Assembly: GCF_003410055.1 (NCBI RefSeq)
Contig: NZ_QUZK01000034.1
Span: 62,001 to 126,000 of the forward strand
DNA: 64,000 bases
Direction of reading: 5' to 3'
Origin: Wenzhouxiangella sediminis
GTDB lineage: Bacteria > Pseudomonadota > Gammaproteobacteria > Xanthomonadales > Wenzhouxiangellaceae
The notes under the pieces were generated by a model that was not told the origin of the DNA, ran no database searches, and worked only from the letters and a program-made list of their open reading frames with translations. Shown here in pieces: positions 110-22,166 of this stretch (its first letter is position 1; every line of letters starts with the position of its first letter). The translations under genes were made by a program, and so were the position numbers.

Positions 110-1840
110 ATGCAAAGCAACAGCTGCCGGGCGCTCTCCGCCCTGGCCACCCTCATCCTTCTCGCATCGCTGCACGGCAGCCCGGCATCGGCCCTCTCGC
201 CGCCGCCACCGCTGCCGGTCGAAGCGCTCTCGGATTTCTACGAGGCCATGAACGGCGACGAATGGCACCGCAACGACGGCTGGCTCGACCCGGAGGTCGA
301 TGTCTGCGACTGGTACGGCATCTCCTGCGTGACCGAGGCGCCGGCAACGGGTGGATACGAGTGGATCGGGCGCATCGAGCTGCCGGACAACAACCTGCAG
401 GGGGAACTCACCGCCGAACTGCAGGAACGCCTGTGGACCTACGGTCCCGCGTCCACGCCAAGCCGCGAGCTTGATCTCAGCGGCAATGCCATCCGCGGGG
501 AGTTCACTTATTTTCCCTGGGGCACCGGGGACGTGAACCTGAGCGGCAACCTGCTGAGCGGCAGCCTGCCCGATCTGCCCGCGGAATTGCCCGAAATCGA
601 ACTCGAGCGACTCCGCCTGTCCCGCAACGACTTCGAAGGCGCCGTACCCGCCGGCTGGGACCGCCTGCAGTTGCGCCGCCTCGAGCTTTCCGACAACCGC
701 CTCGACGCCGGTGCCGAACACGCCTTCGCGGCCATGCACGGTTTCGAGCAGAGCTTTCTCTACCTCAACGGCAACCGCTTCGCCGCCGAGCTGGGCGAAG
801 ACATCACCAACGCGCAGGGGCTGGCCGAACGCGGCGACAGCAACGTCGGCGCCGGGCTCGACCTGTGCTACAACGACTTCCTGATCGAAGACCCCGCCGT
901 GAGGGACTGGATCGCCGCACGCCACGTCGGCTCGACGGACTTCGAGGCCTGCCTGGGCCGGCAACGCGTGGCCGTCGACGCCACCGCAAGCGGCAGCTGG
1001 TATCACCCCGGCCGCTCCGGGGAAGGCATTTCGCTGATGATCCTCGAACAGGGTGCGCCCCTGCTCTACAGCTTCGGCTTCGACAGCGAGGGCCGACAGC
1101 AGTGGCTGTTCGAGCTGGGCCACGCCGGCGACCGCTGGCTGCGCTGGGATCCCGTGCGCGAGACGCGCGGTTACTTCGGCGAAGGCATCGCCGCCGACGA
1201 GGACTACCGCTTCGTCCGGTCCACCGGCCGGTTTCGCGCCGACCGCGTCGGCACCGACACGCTCAGCCTGCACCGCCACTACTACGACCTGCTGGCCTGC
1301 GGGCCGTGGGAACCGCAAGTGGTACCACCCCCCGGTCTGTGCCCGCCACCGCTGTTCGACGATCGCCTCGACTACCACCGCCTGTCACGCCTGGCCGGAA
1401 CGACCTGCGAAAACGGCAGCGATTACCAGCAGTATTCCGGCGCCTGGTACAACCCGCAGCAGTCCGGCGAAGGCTTCCTGATCGAAGTCATGCCCGACGA
1501 CCGCGCGGTCGTCTACTGGTTCACCTACAAGCCAGGCGATTCCGGCGAGCAGGCCTGGATGGTCGGAAGCGGGGAGATGTCCTTTGTGCCTTCCGTCATC
1601 CCGGTGGGTACGGAAAACCCGGCTCAACTCACGGTCACGCTCCACCAGCCCCAGGGCGCAAGCTACGGCCCGGACTTCGATCCCGGAGACGTCGATCCGG
1701 TCGAATGGGGCGAGCTCACGATCGACTTCGGCGTACCGGGCACCGGCGAGGTGCAGTTCGAGAGCGTCATAGACGACTTTGGCTCGGGCGAATTCCAGAT
1801 CGAGCGATTGGCCGCTCCCATGCTGGCCGAGTGCGAGTAG
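110..1840 (+). CDS. Secreted plant-type LRR protein with two SGxWYxP-GEG/WFTY modules (paralogue 1)
   Basis: 576 residues. Residues 1-28 form a signal peptide ending in a small-residue site (ASA). An LRR N-terminal cap follows (ALSDFYEAMNGDEW, then CDWYGISC near residues 66-73), like the cap of plant-type LRR proteins. Degenerate leucine-rich repeats (LDLSGN, LELSDN) run to about residue 250 and close with a Cys-containing cap (LDLCYNDF ... EACL). The C-terminal half carries two related modules. The first begins near residue 294 (GSWYHPGRSGEG); the second, from about 428, has RLAGTTC, SGAWYNPQQSGEG and VVYWFTYKP. The start has GAGGTG eight bases upstream. It is first of three tandem paralogues separated by 54-125 bases. 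Function is unknown; a secreted or surface binding role is inferred from architecture only. Confidence 0.8.
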   Translation: MQSNSCRALSALATLILLASLHGSPASALSPPPPLPVEALSDFYEAMNGDEWHRNDGWLDPEVDVCDWYGISCVTEAPATGGYEWIGRIELPDNNLQGELTAELQERLWTYGPASTPSRELDLSGNAIRGEFTYFPWGTGDVNLSGNLLSGSLPDLPAELPEIELERLRLSRNDFEGAVPAGWDRLQLRRLELSDNRLDAGAEHAFAAMHGFEQSFLYLNGNRFAAELGEDITNAQGLAERGDSNVGAGLDLCYNDFLIEDPAVRDWIAARHVGSTDFEACLGRQRVAVDATASGSWYHPGRSGEGISLMILEQGAPLLYSFGFDSEGRQQWLFELGHAGDRWLRWDPVRETRGYFGEGIAADEDYRFVRSTGRFRADRVGTDTLSLHRHYYDLLACGPWEPQVVPPPGLCPPPLFDDRLDYHRLSRLAGTTCENGSDYQQYSGAWYNPQQSGEGFLIEVMPDDRAVVYWFTYKPGDSGEQAWMVGSGEMSFVPSVIPVGTENPAQLTVTLHQPQGASYGPDFDPGDVDPVEWGELTIDFGVPGTGEVQFESVIDDFGSGEFQIERLAAPMLAECE

Positions 1841-1894
1841 CCCGGCATCGCCCCGTCGGCGGCCATCAAGCCACGCCAAATCCGGAGATCAGCG

Positions 1895-4012
1895 ATGCAG
1901 CGAGCAACCACGATTCGACGTCTCGCGACCCTTGCCTTCCTGCTGCCCTGGGCCCTGGCAGGCGCCCAGTCCGAACCGGAGCGAGACGCGCTGGTCGCGC
2001 TCTACCGGGCCACCGGCGGCGAGAACTGGCGTGAGCAGGACAACTGGCTCACCGACCGGCACCACTGCGCCTGGGAAGGCGTCCACTGCCGGGATGTCGA
2101 CGGCCAGCGGCGGGTCGATTTCCTCGATCTGCGCTGGCACGGACTCAGTGGACAGCTACCCGAATCCCTCGCCGGCCTGTCCGAGCTGACCGAGCTGGTA
2201 CTCAGCGACAACAGGCTCAGCGGCCCGCTGCCGGATACGCCCTGGGGGCTGCCCCGACTTCGCTTCCTGGCTGTGCACGACAACCATTTCACCGGCACCA
2301 TCCCGCAATGGCTGCTGGCGCTTGGAAAAGGCACAGGAGTGGACCTCAGCGGCAACCAATTCTCGGGATACCGAATCGGGACGTCGGAGTCCGGTGGGCA
2401 AACCGACCCCGTGAGCCTCGACCTCTCCGACAACCGGCTCGACCACCTGCCGCCGCCGGCGTGGCTGGAAGGCAAGCGCGTGACAGGTCTGGATCTCTCG
2501 GACAACCGGCTGGCGGGCTCGATCGATATGGCGACGCTTCCGCCGGACCTGCTTGAGCTCGATCTCTCGGACAACGCCCTGGCGGAAATCACGGGGCTGG
2601 ACCAAAGCGGCTCCCAGTCGCTCGCCCGTCTCGATGCATCCGGCAATCAGTTCGAATCCTGGCCGGCCGGCCTGGCCGCACTCGACCTCGCCCATCTCGA
2701 CCTCGGTGAAAACCGGCTGTCCGGTAGCTGGCCCGAGTGGCTGTCGACGATGCCCCTGGACACACTCGATCTCTCCGGCAATGAATTGTCCGGCGACTTG
2801 CCGGCCTCGGTCGGTCAACTCGAACTCATGGCGATCGATATCGGCAACAACGATTTCACCGGATCGATCGCGCCGGCGTTCGAGTCGCTGCGCACCCCCG
2901 ACTGGTCGGGCAACTGGCTGCTCGCCGCCGACAACGCCTTCAGCGGCGGTTTGCCGGACAATCTCGAATTCTCCCGCTTCAATAACGGCTACTGGCCCAA
3001 CACCTACGGTGACGTAATCGAGCAGTTCGGGCTGCGCGGCCTGGATCTGTGCTGGAACGAGCTTGAGATCAGCACGGCTGAGCGTGAAGCGATCGAAGAC
3101 GCCCAGGTCCACAGAGGCCGGGAATTGGGGTCCTGCATCGACCAAGCACGCCACGCCATCGATCCGGGCGTCGGCGGATCCTGGTTCGACCCCGAACGCA
3201 GCGGCGAAGGGCTGACCCAGATGATGCTCGACAACGGCCGAGTGATGGTCTACTGGTTCACCTACGGCAACCTGGGCTGGCGGCCCGATGAACAACTCTG
3301 GCTGGTCGGGATCGTCGAGCCCGACGAACAGTCGTTCGGACCGATCCGGCTTGCAGCCCCGGAAGGCGGCCGATTTTCATTCGGGTTTAACCGCAGCGCT
3401 CGCCGCGACTACACGGGCAGCTACACCATTCGGCAGGATCGCGTTGACGAAGATGAAAGCCGGTTCTTCTACGAGTTCCTCCGCGGCGGCATCTGCATTA
3501 CGGGCGGGTGCAGCTATGAATACGACAGCCAGCGCCTCGAGCACGATCGGCTCACGCGCCTGGCCGGCACCACCTGCGAGACGCAAAGCCCCTACCAGCA
3601 GTACGCCGGCGCCTGGTACAACCCCGAGCGCGCGGGCGAGGGCTTCGTTGTCGAAGTGTTGCCCGATGATCGAATCGTCGTCTACTGGTTTACCTACAAG
3701 CCGGACGAATCGGGGCACCAGGCCTGGATGGTCGGCAGCGGCCGCTTCCCGGACGAAGACCTCATCGTCGACCCACCCCCACCCTGGGAAACCCAGGCCG
3801 AAATGACCCTCTTCCAGCCCGTCGGCGCCGAGTTCGGCTCGCAGTTCGACCCCGCCGACGTACGCAGAGTCGAGTGGGGCGACTTCACCATCCGGTTCAC
3901 CGACGAAGACCACGGCCGCGTGTTCTGGAACAGTGAGCTCGACGGTTACGGCTCCGGTGACTACGCCATCGAGCGCCTCGCCACCCCGAAGCTGGCCGAC
4001 TGCGGGCCTTGA
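1895..4012 (+). CDS. Secreted plant-type LRR protein with two SGxWYxP-GEG/WFTY modules (paralogue 2)
   Basis: 705 residues, the longest of the three paralogues because of extra leucine-rich repeats. Signal peptide 1-24 (ends LAGAQ). The N-terminal cap reads ALVALYRATGGENW with a CAWEGVHC pair. About a dozen repeats follow with LDLSDNRL or LDLSGN cores, then a cap with LDLCWNEL and a second Cys. The two C-terminal modules start near residue 428 (GGSWFDPERSGEG) and residue 570 (AGAWYNPERAGEG, then VVYWFTYKPDESGHQAW). The start is preceded by GGAG. The module resembles glycine/tryptophan-rich repeats I recall from xanthomonad exported proteins, but I know no named function. Length variation between neighbours suggests gain or loss of LRR units after tandem duplication. 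Confidence 0.8.
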   Translation: MQRATTIRRLATLAFLLPWALAGAQSEPERDALVALYRATGGENWREQDNWLTDRHHCAWEGVHCRDVDGQRRVDFLDLRWHGLSGQLPESLAGLSELTELVLSDNRLSGPLPDTPWGLPRLRFLAVHDNHFTGTIPQWLLALGKGTGVDLSGNQFSGYRIGTSESGGQTDPVSLDLSDNRLDHLPPPAWLEGKRVTGLDLSDNRLAGSIDMATLPPDLLELDLSDNALAEITGLDQSGSQSLARLDASGNQFESWPAGLAALDLAHLDLGENRLSGSWPEWLSTMPLDTLDLSGNELSGDLPASVGQLELMAIDIGNNDFTGSIAPAFESLRTPDWSGNWLLAADNAFSGGLPDNLEFSRFNNGYWPNTYGDVIEQFGLRGLDLCWNELEISTAEREAIEDAQVHRGRELGSCIDQARHAIDPGVGGSWFDPERSGEGLTQMMLDNGRVMVYWFTYGNLGWRPDEQLWLVGIVEPDEQSFGPIRLAAPEGGRFSFGFNRSARRDYTGSYTIRQDRVDEDESRFFYEFLRGGICITGGCSYEYDSQRLEHDRLTRLAGTTCETQSPYQQYAGAWYNPERAGEGFVVEVLPDDRIVVYWFTYKPDESGHQAWMVGSGRFPDEDLIVDPPPPWETQAEMTLFQPVGAEFGSQFDPADVRRVEWGDFTIRFTDEDHGRVFWNSELDGYGSGDYAIERLATPKLADCGP

Positions 4013-4137
4013 TCGTCGCCGAGCCCGCGCCTCGATTAACCATGGTTTTACGAGCCCTAAACCGGCGCCTGACATTCCCGCTCTTAGACTCTATCCACGG
4101 GAAGGGATCATTTTCTTGCAGTGTGGGAGGACAAACC

Positions 4138-5877
4138 ATGCATTCATTCGACAACCCGCCTCGGCTCTGGTCGGGGCTGGCCTGTACGGCTATTCTGACG
4201 CTTTCGCTGGGCATGACCAGCACATCGGTCGAGGCACAGCTGCCCGAAGCGGACCGGCAGGCCTTGATCGACCTCTACGAATCCACCAACGGCGACGAGT
4301 GGATCAAGAATGACAACTGGCTCGGAGAGCCGGGCACGGAATGCGACTGGCACGGCATCGAGTGCTTCGACGATCTCGACCAGTACGCAGTGATACTGAG
4401 CTACAACAACCTCTCGGGCAGCTTGCCGGCCTCGCTGAGCGACGCCGAGGGCATGCGCTTCCTTTTGGCCGAGAACAACCAGCTCGAAGGCGAGTGGACC
4501 ATCGCACCCGAAAGCCTGCCGAACCTCATGCTGATCGATCTCGCCGACAACCGGCTGACCGGCTTCGATCTGTCCAAGAGCTCGGTCCCCTCGCTCCTGG
4601 GCATACAACTGTCGGGCAACCAGCTCACGGGCGGCTTGCCCGAGGGCCTTGCAAACAGGACCATGCTCGCCCGAATCGACATGTCTCACAACGAGCTCTC
4701 GGGCGACCTGCCGGATTGGCTTTCCGGGCTGGCGCTCGACGAGGAGCTCAACCTGGCGGGCAATGCATTCACCGGCAGCATCATTCCCGCGCTTTCGGCG
4801 ATGGCCGACGAGCTATCTCCCGGCAATCCGGATGCCACGAATGCCGGCGTCCTGCTGGATCTTCGCGACAATGATTTCTCCGGAGACATCCAGGCCGAGG
4901 CCGCCGATTTCTCCAAGGGCATCGACGGCTGGCTGACCCTGTGCTGGAACGACCTTCAGGCCGCTGACGAATCCGTCGAATCATGGCTGGCCGAAGAACA
5001 CTACGGCGACCCCCAACAATGCCTGGGCAAGTCGCTGGTCACCCCCAGCGCAGTAACCAGCGGTTCCTGGTACAACCCGGACAGACCAGGCGAGGGGTTC
5101 TCGATCATGCAACTCGAGGACGGCCAGACCATGGTCCACTGGTTCACTTATGCGCCAGCCGACGATCCGCCCGGCCGGCAGAGCTGGTTGTCGGGCAGCC
5201 GTACCTTCGAGGACCCGTCCTTCGACAAGGTGCCGGTTTTCGCGCCGCGCGGCGGCCAGTTCGCAGAGGGCCTCCCTGATCCCAGCAGCTATCCGCACGA
5301 TGCTTTCGGCATCATCGGAATGGCCTGGACGGGCCAGCAGCGACTCCAGACCGACCAGGAGATGACTGCCGCGGCCACGGAATCGCCGATCTCCCAGTAC
5401 ATGGAGCAAGTACAGCTCACGCGCCTGGCCGGCACCAGTTGCGACAACCAGTCGAACTTCCAGGACTACTCGGGAGCCTGGTTCAACCCCGACCGCTCCG
5501 GCGAAGGCTTCATCGTCGAGGCGCTGCCCGACGACCGCGCCGTCGTCTACTGGTTCACCTACCGGCCCGACGATTCGGGTCACCAGGCCTGGATCACGGG
5601 CAGCGCGGCGTTCGAAACACCGATCACAGGAACACCGCCCCCCGGTGAACCCGTGGCATTCGTGGACTTCGAAAACATGGTGCAACCGGTCGGCACGGCC
5701 CACGGCCCGGACTTCGACGCCAGCGAAATCGATCACATCGACTGGGGCAGCCTGAGGCTGGAATTCTTCGATGACGGCTCCGGCCGCGTGGCCTGGGACT
5801 CCGAGCTGGCCGAATTCGGATCCGGCGATTACGCCATCGAACGCCTGGCGAAGCCGAAACTCGCCGACTGCGACTGA
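4138..5877 (+). CDS. Secreted plant-type LRR protein with two SGxWYxP-GEG/WFTY modules (paralogue 3)
   Basis: 579 residues from the ATG preceded by GGGAGG; an in-frame start 129 bases upstream would put non-signal sequence before the signal peptide and was not used. Signal peptide about 1-33 (ends TSVEAQ). The LRR cap reads ALIDLYESTNGDEW with CDWHGIEC. Repeats follow (IDLADNRLTG, IDMSHNELSG), then the LTLCWNDL cap. Modules start near residue 308 (SGSWYNPDRPGEG) and residue 444 (SGAWFNPDRSGEG, VVYWFTYRPDDSGHQAW). All three proteins end with a conserved tail (GSGDYAIERLAKPKLADC here). The 125-base gap before it holds its own ribosome binding site and probably a promoter, so it may be expressed separately from the first two. 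Confidence 0.8.
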   Translation: MHSFDNPPRLWSGLACTAILTLSLGMTSTSVEAQLPEADRQALIDLYESTNGDEWIKNDNWLGEPGTECDWHGIECFDDLDQYAVILSYNNLSGSLPASLSDAEGMRFLLAENNQLEGEWTIAPESLPNLMLIDLADNRLTGFDLSKSSVPSLLGIQLSGNQLTGGLPEGLANRTMLARIDMSHNELSGDLPDWLSGLALDEELNLAGNAFTGSIIPALSAMADELSPGNPDATNAGVLLDLRDNDFSGDIQAEAADFSKGIDGWLTLCWNDLQAADESVESWLAEEHYGDPQQCLGKSLVTPSAVTSGSWYNPDRPGEGFSIMQLEDGQTMVHWFTYAPADDPPGRQSWLSGSRTFEDPSFDKVPVFAPRGGQFAEGLPDPSSYPHDAFGIIGMAWTGQQRLQTDQEMTAAATESPISQYMEQVQLTRLAGTSCDNQSNFQDYSGAWFNPDRSGEGFIVEALPDDRAVVYWFTYRPDDSGHQAWITGSAAFETPITGTPPPGEPVAFVDFENMVQPVGTAHGPDFDASEIDHIDWGSLRLEFFDDGSGRVAWDSELAEFGSGDYAIERLAKPKLADCD

Positions 5878-20946: not shown

Positions 20947-21267
20947 ATGACAAAGCAAATGAGATATTCCCCGGAAGTCCGGGAACGGGCGGTTCGCATG
21001 GTGATGGAGCAGACCGAGTCGCATGGCTCACAGTGGGCGGCCATCGAGTCGATTTCAGGCAAGATCGGCTGCACGCCGGAGACGCTACGCCGCTGGGTGC
21101 GCCAGTCTGAGTGCGACTCGGGAGATCGAGCTGGTCTGACCACAATGGATCGTGAGCGACTCAAGTCCCTGGAGCGAGAGAACCGGGAGCTGAAGCGGGC
21201 CAACGAGATCCTGCGTAAGGCATCGGCTTTATTCGCCCAGGCGGAGCTCGACCGCACACGCAAGTGA
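20947..21267 (+). CDS. IS3-family transposase OrfA
   Basis: 106 residues. The helix-turn-helix ([13 protein letters not shown] ... [16 protein letters not shown]) binds the IS ends and is followed by a leucine-zipper-like segment ([22 protein letters not shown]). Its stop overlaps the start of orfB. A fused OrfAB made by -1 frameshifting is the usual active transposase, but no A-rich slippery heptamer is obvious here. Confidence 0.92.
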
Positions 21268-22166
21268 TGGTGGACTTCATCGACGAACACCGCGCCGACG
21301 ACGGGGTCGAGCCGATCTGCCAGCAGTTGCCGATCGCCCCGTCGACTTACTTTGAGCACAAGGCCTGCGAGGCTGATCCGAGCCGTCGATCGGCTCGGGC
21401 TCTCCGAGACGAGTCGTTGCAGGCCGAGATTCAGCGAGTCTGGGACGAGAACTTCTGGGTTTACGGCACGCGCAAGGTCTGGCGCCAACTTCAGCGCGAG
21501 TCGTATGACGTGGCGCGCTGTACGGTCGAGCGGTTGATGCGTCGCATGGGCATTCAAGGTGCAGTCCGCGGGGCGCGCTGCCGAACGACGGCGCCTGCGG
21601 CCCAGGCGGACTGTCCGGCCGACCGGGTCAAGCGGCAATTCAACGCGCAGCGGCCCAATCAGCTCTGGGTCGCTGATTTCACCTATGTCGCGACCTGGTC
21701 TGGGTTCGTCTATACGGCATTCATTATCGATGTCTTCGCCAACCGCATCGTGGGCCGGCGAACGGCGCGCAGCATGCGCACCGATCTGGTCCTGGACGCT
21801 CTGGAGCAGGCGCTCTACGCGCGAGGGCCTGAGGATGGCCTGATCCACCACAGCGACCGCGGCACCCAGTACCTGTCGATCTGCTACACCGAACGACTCC
21901 AGGACGTCGGTATCGAAGGGTCGGTCGGCACCACCGGCGATTCCTACGACAATGCCTTGGCCGAAAGCATCATTGGGCTCTACAAAGCGGAACTCATTCA
22001 TCGGCGAGGCCCCTGGCGCAGCCTGGATGATGTGGAGTACGGCACGCTCGAGTGGGTCGATTGGTTCAATCATCGGCGTCTACTCGAGCCGATCGGCCAC
22101 GTGCCACCGGCTGAGTTTGAAATGGCATACTACGAGCAGCTTGAAAGTCCGGCCATTGGGGCCTGA
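21264..22166 (+). CDS. IS3-family transposase OrfB (DDE integrase)
   Basis: 300 residues with an N-terminal HTH_21-type segment and an rve integrase core. The catalytic triad is visible: D in [10 protein letters not shown] in [12 protein letters not shown] and E in [18 protein letters not shown]. The end [20 protein letters not shown] is typical of the family. It starts at GTG or the adjacent ATG overlapping the orfA stop, and is probably made as part of OrfAB. Confidence 0.93.

Follow-up and report, generated by a model that had tools for sequence, protein, structure and literature searches.

Calycins, among them the lipocalins, nitrophorins and avidins, carry as their general signature a tryptophan on strand A and a basic residue on the last strand. 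AimA of Aeromonas (PDB 6B7L) is a secreted protein consisting of two tandem calycin-like domains without sequence homologues (eLife 2018, PMC6219842); it is limited to Aeromonas and acts as an immune modulator in the fish host (PMC6219842). Here we describe an array of proteins from Wenzhouxiangella sediminis in which a pair of predicted calycin-like barrels follows a plant-type leucine-rich repeat (LRR) domain. Three genes of the array lie at positions 110–5877 of a 64,000-nucleotide stretch, which we call the window, of the 3.5 Mb genome G000 (contig NZ_QUZK01000034.1, positions 62,001–126,000; G000:C7:62001-126000). Three co-directional open reading frames on the + strand encode secreted proteins, each with LRRs and two copies of a module: P0001 (110–1840, 576 aa), the first in the window, P0002 (1895–4012, 705 aa) and P0003 (4138–5877, 579 aa). 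These are genes 2, 3 and 4 of the array; gene 1 (557 aa, G000:C7:60326-61999) ends 2 bp before the window. Thus the three tandem genes of the first-pass annotation, which was made from the sequence of the window, are all real, and the array has a fourth member outside it. Of the interpretation given there, about half stands. The architecture, which is well supported, is a new one made from known kinds of parts, plus an apparently unnamed domain family. In the one literature library that was searched, no paper joins Wenzhouxiangella and leucine-rich repeat.

The module is about 120 residues long and is present in two C-terminal copies in every array protein of the window. A profile of the first copies gives the 121-position consensus ISGSWYDPERSGEGFVLEVLDDGRALVYWFTYDESGEQAWLVGVGEIEGNSLEFDELLETRGGRFGEGFDPDEVEREDWGSLTLEFDDCDSGEVSYESELPGFGSGRLELERLTRLAGTEC, and the module matches listed for the same genome lie well beyond chance expectation, at E 1e-26 to 1e-43. 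With hidden Markov models (HMMs), the modules of P0001 were placed at 986–1408, a divergent copy, and at 1433–1834 (E 6e-40), and module 1 of P0002 at 3170–3577; module 2 of P0002 occupies 3602–4003, and the two modules of P0003 occupy 5056–5442 and 5467–5871. The motifs first proposed for the module, including SGEGF and VVYWFTYKP, fit the second copy best, and the first copy is divergent, carrying SGEGI, SGEGL or PGEGF and, in P0001, YSFGF. Structure prediction, suggested as a check in the first-pass annotation, gave an eight-stranded calycin-like barrel. The AlphaFold2 model of module 2 of P0002, calculated from a 115-sequence alignment, has a predicted local distance difference test score (pLDDT) of 91 and a predicted template modelling (TM) score, pTM, of 0.82, with eight strands arranged in order as a meander barrel. 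Eight strands are also present in module 1 of P0003 in a full-length model. The nearest structures in a Foldseek search were nitrophorins, avidins, retinol-binding protein and nitrobindin, with TM scores mostly about 0.35–0.5. W5, in a GxW context on strand A, has a conservation of 98%, and R125 on the last strand one of 83%. The predicted structure appears to combine the eight-stranded antiparallel meander barrel, the strand-A GxW and the last-strand basic residue of a calycin-like domain. We call the module calycin-like in fold, and would not place it in a named calycin family.

The initial view that the module corresponds to no named domain agrees with the sequence and fold searches, which returned no named domain, enzyme or propeller family. 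Scans of Pfam, NCBIfam and PHROGs gave no match over cut-off, and searches of PDB sequences with the module profile and with a single module found no relative. The Avidin family (PF01382) has no Pfam match to the module at E up to 1 and none in the genome, and its hhalign probability is 0.4%. Lipocalin_2 (PF08212) leaves the module unmatched, its matches in the genome being elsewhere (C43 and C7:19598), with an hhalign probability of 0.6%. CBM_56 scored 17.0 and 14.5 bits against a cut-off of 27, over only 16–19 residues. A phage origin was also considered and rejected, as it would rest on one weak phage match and three weak viral-contig matches. The phage match is a hypothetical protein of Dolichospermum phage Dfl-JY45 (L155:2905-3798; 29.5% over 126 aa, E 1e-6), and a viral fold library likewise gave weak matches only, some of them avidin- and lipocalin-like. 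We regard the module as an apparently unnamed domain family that is enriched in the order.

Many proteins that carry the module have no LRRs. Its other carriers in the same genome are an M14 carboxypeptidase, a cyclophilin, an FG-GAP protein and a number of unidentified proteins. It is not a partner or effector reserved for LRRs, and on this point the original interpretation is not supported as it was put. The cyclophilin (L026:1098-2102, G000:C45), a secreted prolyl isomerase of the cyclophilin type, carries a single fused module. In a set of 70 other module proteins, the Pfam partners include M14 (14), Spond_N (6), alpha/beta-hydrolase (5) and kelch (4), and further S8, M28, M23, arylsulfotransferase (ASST), amidohydrolase, plastocyanin-like and DUF1800 domains. 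The module is paired in 52 of 71 non-LRR proteins, with linkers of 9–22 aa, and is placed C-terminally in 50 and N-terminally in 21. P0002 has matches in 55 of 61 relatives, ranging from genus to order, mostly through its modules. Most Lysobacterales families sampled have the module, often with 10–25 matches per genome; of 399 genomes sampled across the phylum, five contain it, three of which are Lysobacterales. The module is a general accessory domain of exoproteins, frequent in Lysobacterales and infrequent elsewhere in the Pseudomonadota.

The LRR part of the array proteins is plant-type. Pfam LRR_1 matches P0002, P0003 and P0001 with E = 1.9e-24, 6.8e-13 and 2.1e-8, respectively, and all three pass the curated cut-off of 20.6 bits with scores of 33–81. 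P0002 and P0003 are also over cut-off with LRR_8, and P0001 with LRR_1 only. The N-cap family LRRNT_2 is borderline in the protein scan (13.0–18.9 bits against a cut-off of 20.7; E 0.0018 for P0001) and reaches 23.2 bits on P0001 in a six-frame search with the same cut-off. Searched against PDB sequences, P0002 matches plant LRR receptor kinases, with GSO1 at E 3e-61, as well as FLS2, MIK2, PEPR1 and PGIP (about 1e-17). The full-length model of P0003 (19-row alignment, pLDDT 87.5, pTM 0.81) predicts a helical N-cap, an LRR solenoid, a C-cap and two barrels. Among PDB structures it is closest to plant LRR ectodomains and PGIP. Given these matches of P0002 and P0003 to plant LRR receptors and PGIP, the label plant-type is right; the LRR_1 matches, the plant receptor kinases and the P0003 model all support the plant-type LRRs originally described. 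P0001 (242–985) has the N-cap AMNGDEW...CDWYGISC and a short solenoid with a span of 178 aa, P0002 (2009–3169) has ATGGENW...CAWEGVHC and a long solenoid (319 aa), and P0003 (4282–5055) has STNGDEW...CDWHGIEC and a span of 191 aa. The caps are of the disulfide type, and each LRR part ends in a Cys C-cap, which contains LCWN in P0002 and P0003, as had been stated for all three, and LCYN...C in P0001. The NCBIfam models for XopAC, XopAE, SspH2 and the Leptospira fibronectin-binding protein scored far below cut-off and were rejected as generic LRR similarity.

Outside the Wenzhouxiangella family, no LRR-module arrays were found. Homologues of the array are present in the genome of the cultured Wenzhouxiangella strain 15190. 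A profile of the junction from LRR C-cap to module gives strong end-to-end matches only in this family (genera g1, g2, g6 and g7); in other Lysobacterales the matches listed lie mainly over the module part. Complete array proteins always have exactly two modules, and their LRR spans range from 146 to 352 aa. In a maximum-likelihood tree of module pairs, old paralogue groups are intermixed across species, and the LRR span is constant or nearly so within most of these groups (169/169/169; 350–352; 146/146; 165/165; 248/248; 172/172; 319/319). Over 9.3 kb, the array locus shares 94.8% DNA identity with G009, a genome of the same genus, and the four orthologues have equal spans in G000 and G009 (169/178/319/191 aa). 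Because LRR length is fixed in orthologues and differs between ancient paralogues, the idea that a recognition part varies while the module stays constant is valid only when paralogues are compared; the variation among strains that the first-pass annotation anticipated is largely absent within orthologues.

What differs between the two genomes is the number of genes: the array has four in G000 and five in G009 (fifth gene, L057:13545-15227). The junction of the fifth gene, at the 3' end of module 2 of P0003, falls within a 17-bp near-identity, CCGAAACT(C/G)GCCGACTG, that genes 4 and 5 share at their 3' ends. Loss in G000 and gain in G009 are equally compatible with this arrangement. Synonymous divergence (dS) between the arrays is patchy, with values from 0.01 (gene 3) to 0.39 (LRR part of gene 1), a pattern suggestive of recombination. 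The ratio of nonsynonymous to synonymous divergence (dN/dS) is mostly about 0.1–0.3; the gene 3 LRR part has 0.67 on only 4 synonymous changes, and there is no clear positive selection.

All three window proteins begin with a typical Sec signal peptide, judged by eye, which agrees with their first description as secreted. The approximate extents are 110–193 in P0001 (...SPASA), 1895–1966 in P0002 (...ALAGA) and 4138–4236 in P0003 (...TSVEA). No lipobox was seen by eye in these peptides, and the C-terminus ends within the module; on these grounds, covalent or lipid anchoring, as lipoproteins or by PEP/IPTL-CTERM signals, is not supported. Pseudopilin genes of a type II secretion system are present in the genome. 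A module-less plant-type LRR protein of the same genome (L215:339-1607; G000:C14:190338-191606) ends C-terminally in a hydrophobic tail similar to an IPTL-CTERM sorting signal, for which NCBIfam gave no confirmation.

We propose, with a probability of about 40%, that the LRRs are binding arms for protein ligands, held at a surface or polymer by the double barrel as a shared docking domain. The array proteins would cross the outer membrane, the type II secretion system being the likely route. The barrel pair would then dock peptidases, cyclophilin, kelch, spondin and LRR proteins alike, either at the surface of the producing cell or on an extracellular polymer or ligand that they share, and the concave face of the LRRs would bind a protein, for example a protein of the prey, a substrate protein or an exoenzyme that acts as partner. 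We infer the docking role because the same paired barrel is reused on unrelated exoproteins; the pairing, the 9–22 aa linkers and the placement at either terminus are what is expected of an add-on docking domain. That LRR length is fixed in each lineage speaks for paralogues with stable targets and against strain-by-strain diversification. Each ancient paralogue, with its own LRR length, would presumably have its own target, and the size of the repertoire may shift as whole genes are gained or lost when the similar 3' ends, which encode modules, recombine. A role of the array proteins in surface recognition or adhesion is plausible.

Several observations weigh against this proposal. The Foldseek matches of the module all have E >1e-3, with a fold likeness of only about 0.4–0.5 in TM score, and hhalign comparison with avidin and lipocalin profiles gives probabilities <1%. 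About 30% of the non-LRR proteins carry the module N-terminally, which is unusual for a C-terminal sorting signal. Identity is 41% on the concave and 47% on the convex LRR face, a small effect with p 0.04 on non-independent counts. The barrel might just as well serve to bind a ligand or to target a substrate. It is possible, if somewhat unlikely, that the pair acts in the manner of a carbohydrate-binding module (CBM), bringing the attached enzyme or LRR domain of a freely secreted protein to a glycan of prey or substrate, a cell-wall component, a lipid or a small ligand. Calycins typically hold ligands in the barrel, the conserved strands are rich in aromatic residues (W29, W42), and the module's partners are mostly hydrolases and binding domains. 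The weak CBM_56 match (E 0.0003–0.04) points the same way; however, it is short and below the curated cut-off, and the cyclophilin, plastocyanin-like and LRR partners have no common substrate class. In support of our proposal, a shared surface-retention domain would fit what is described for Wenzhouxiangella AB-CW3, which preys on Gram-positive cells and releases no protease activity to the medium (PMC7691419); the authors suggest outer-membrane-anchored proteases, and the core genome includes the type II secretion system (PMC7691419). Binding of a substrate or ligand is almost as probable as surface retention. Another reading, which we consider unlikely and slightly more so than CBM-like targeting, makes the paired barrel an undescribed non-covalent surface-retention domain of Lysobacterales and close relatives that serves secreted peptidases and binding proteins as a class. 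The LRR array would then be the branch that recognizes proteins when the bacterium feeds on other cells.

Other readings concern the LRR proteins themselves. They could be inhibitors or shields that work like PGIP, blocking hydrolases, whether foreign or the cell's own, close to the cell surface; the nearest solved LRR structures include PGIP, compact spans of 146–215 aa resemble stand-alone inhibitors, and there are several paralogues per genome. However, the PGIP match reflects the whole LRR class, and receptors match equally or better; we regard this reading as improbable. Even less credible is a hypervariable recognition or self/non-self system that diversifies by LRR number, in the manner of variable lymphocyte receptors or polymorphic adhesins. 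The tandem array, the mosaic of dS values (0.01–0.39) within it and the difference in gene number between close relatives would fit such a system, but LRR number is constant between G000 and G009 and nearly so in most orthologous groups across species, LRR dN/dS is mostly 0.2–0.3 without clear positive selection, and the concave-face excess is weak. We give equally little credence to ordinary housekeeping exoproteins with LRRs and barrels as passive spacers or matrix components. Their presence in many genomes of the genus and the lack of a clear diversification signal are in line with this, but the barrels always number two, the linkers are similar and the set of paralogues is conserved, which suggests that the function is under selection.

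The window array genes are separated by 54 bp (P0001/P0002) and 125 bp (P0002/P0003). The start of P0003 is most likely the ATG at 4138 rather than the first in-frame TTG at 4009, because GGAGGA precedes the ATG. Promoter and terminator scans were uninformative. Elsewhere in the window, at 21225–21341, there is an Rfam ALIL pseudoknot (RF01497, 98.5 bits), a frameshift element typical of some IS3-type insertion sequences. In genome G018, an array gene (L059:3410-4690) is broken inside its second module by a ~1.3-kb insert, which has a ~400-aa frame resembling an IS4-type transposase by eye. In G012 (L213:550-4737) and G018 (L214:2002-5610), large secreted proteins join a short LRR part and a pair of modules to a CotH kinase domain, which Pfam matches at E 5.6e-60 and 5e-64, respectively. 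Similar frames of ~850–1400 aa with the same junction occur in about 12 Wenzhouxiangella genomes, with the CotH scan covering G012 and G018.

The module family deserves a name and a structure, and defining it would help to annotate many 'hypothetical' exoproteins. If the module does retain exoproteins at the surface, it would explain the cell-bound lytic enzymes of the proteolytic, bacteria-eating Wenzhouxiangella. With the LRR branch, nature offers an example of plant-type LRR arms on a bacterial exoprotein chassis, in some species also with a CotH secreted-kinase domain.

Compared with known systems, the array proteins share with plant LRR receptor ectodomains and PGIP the N-cap pattern W...CxWxGVxC, the LxxLxLxxNxLxGxIP repeats and the Cys C-cap. 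Unlike plant receptors, they are bacterial, lack a transmembrane or kinase part and continue from the LRRs into two beta-barrels. With CBMs, PPC and sorting domains, the module shares its occurrence, often repeated, on many unrelated secreted enzymes and binding proteins, whereas its sequence and predicted fold differ from theirs. The predicted eight-stranded up-and-down barrel, the strand-A GxW and the last-strand Arg resemble those of calycins, but the module has no detectable sequence homology to them, TM scores of about 0.4–0.5, and is used as a paired accessory domain. AimA has no LRRs, and the PDB sequence search with the module gave no relation to it; on present evidence AimA is not a homologue of the array proteins but a structural precedent for twin secreted calycins.

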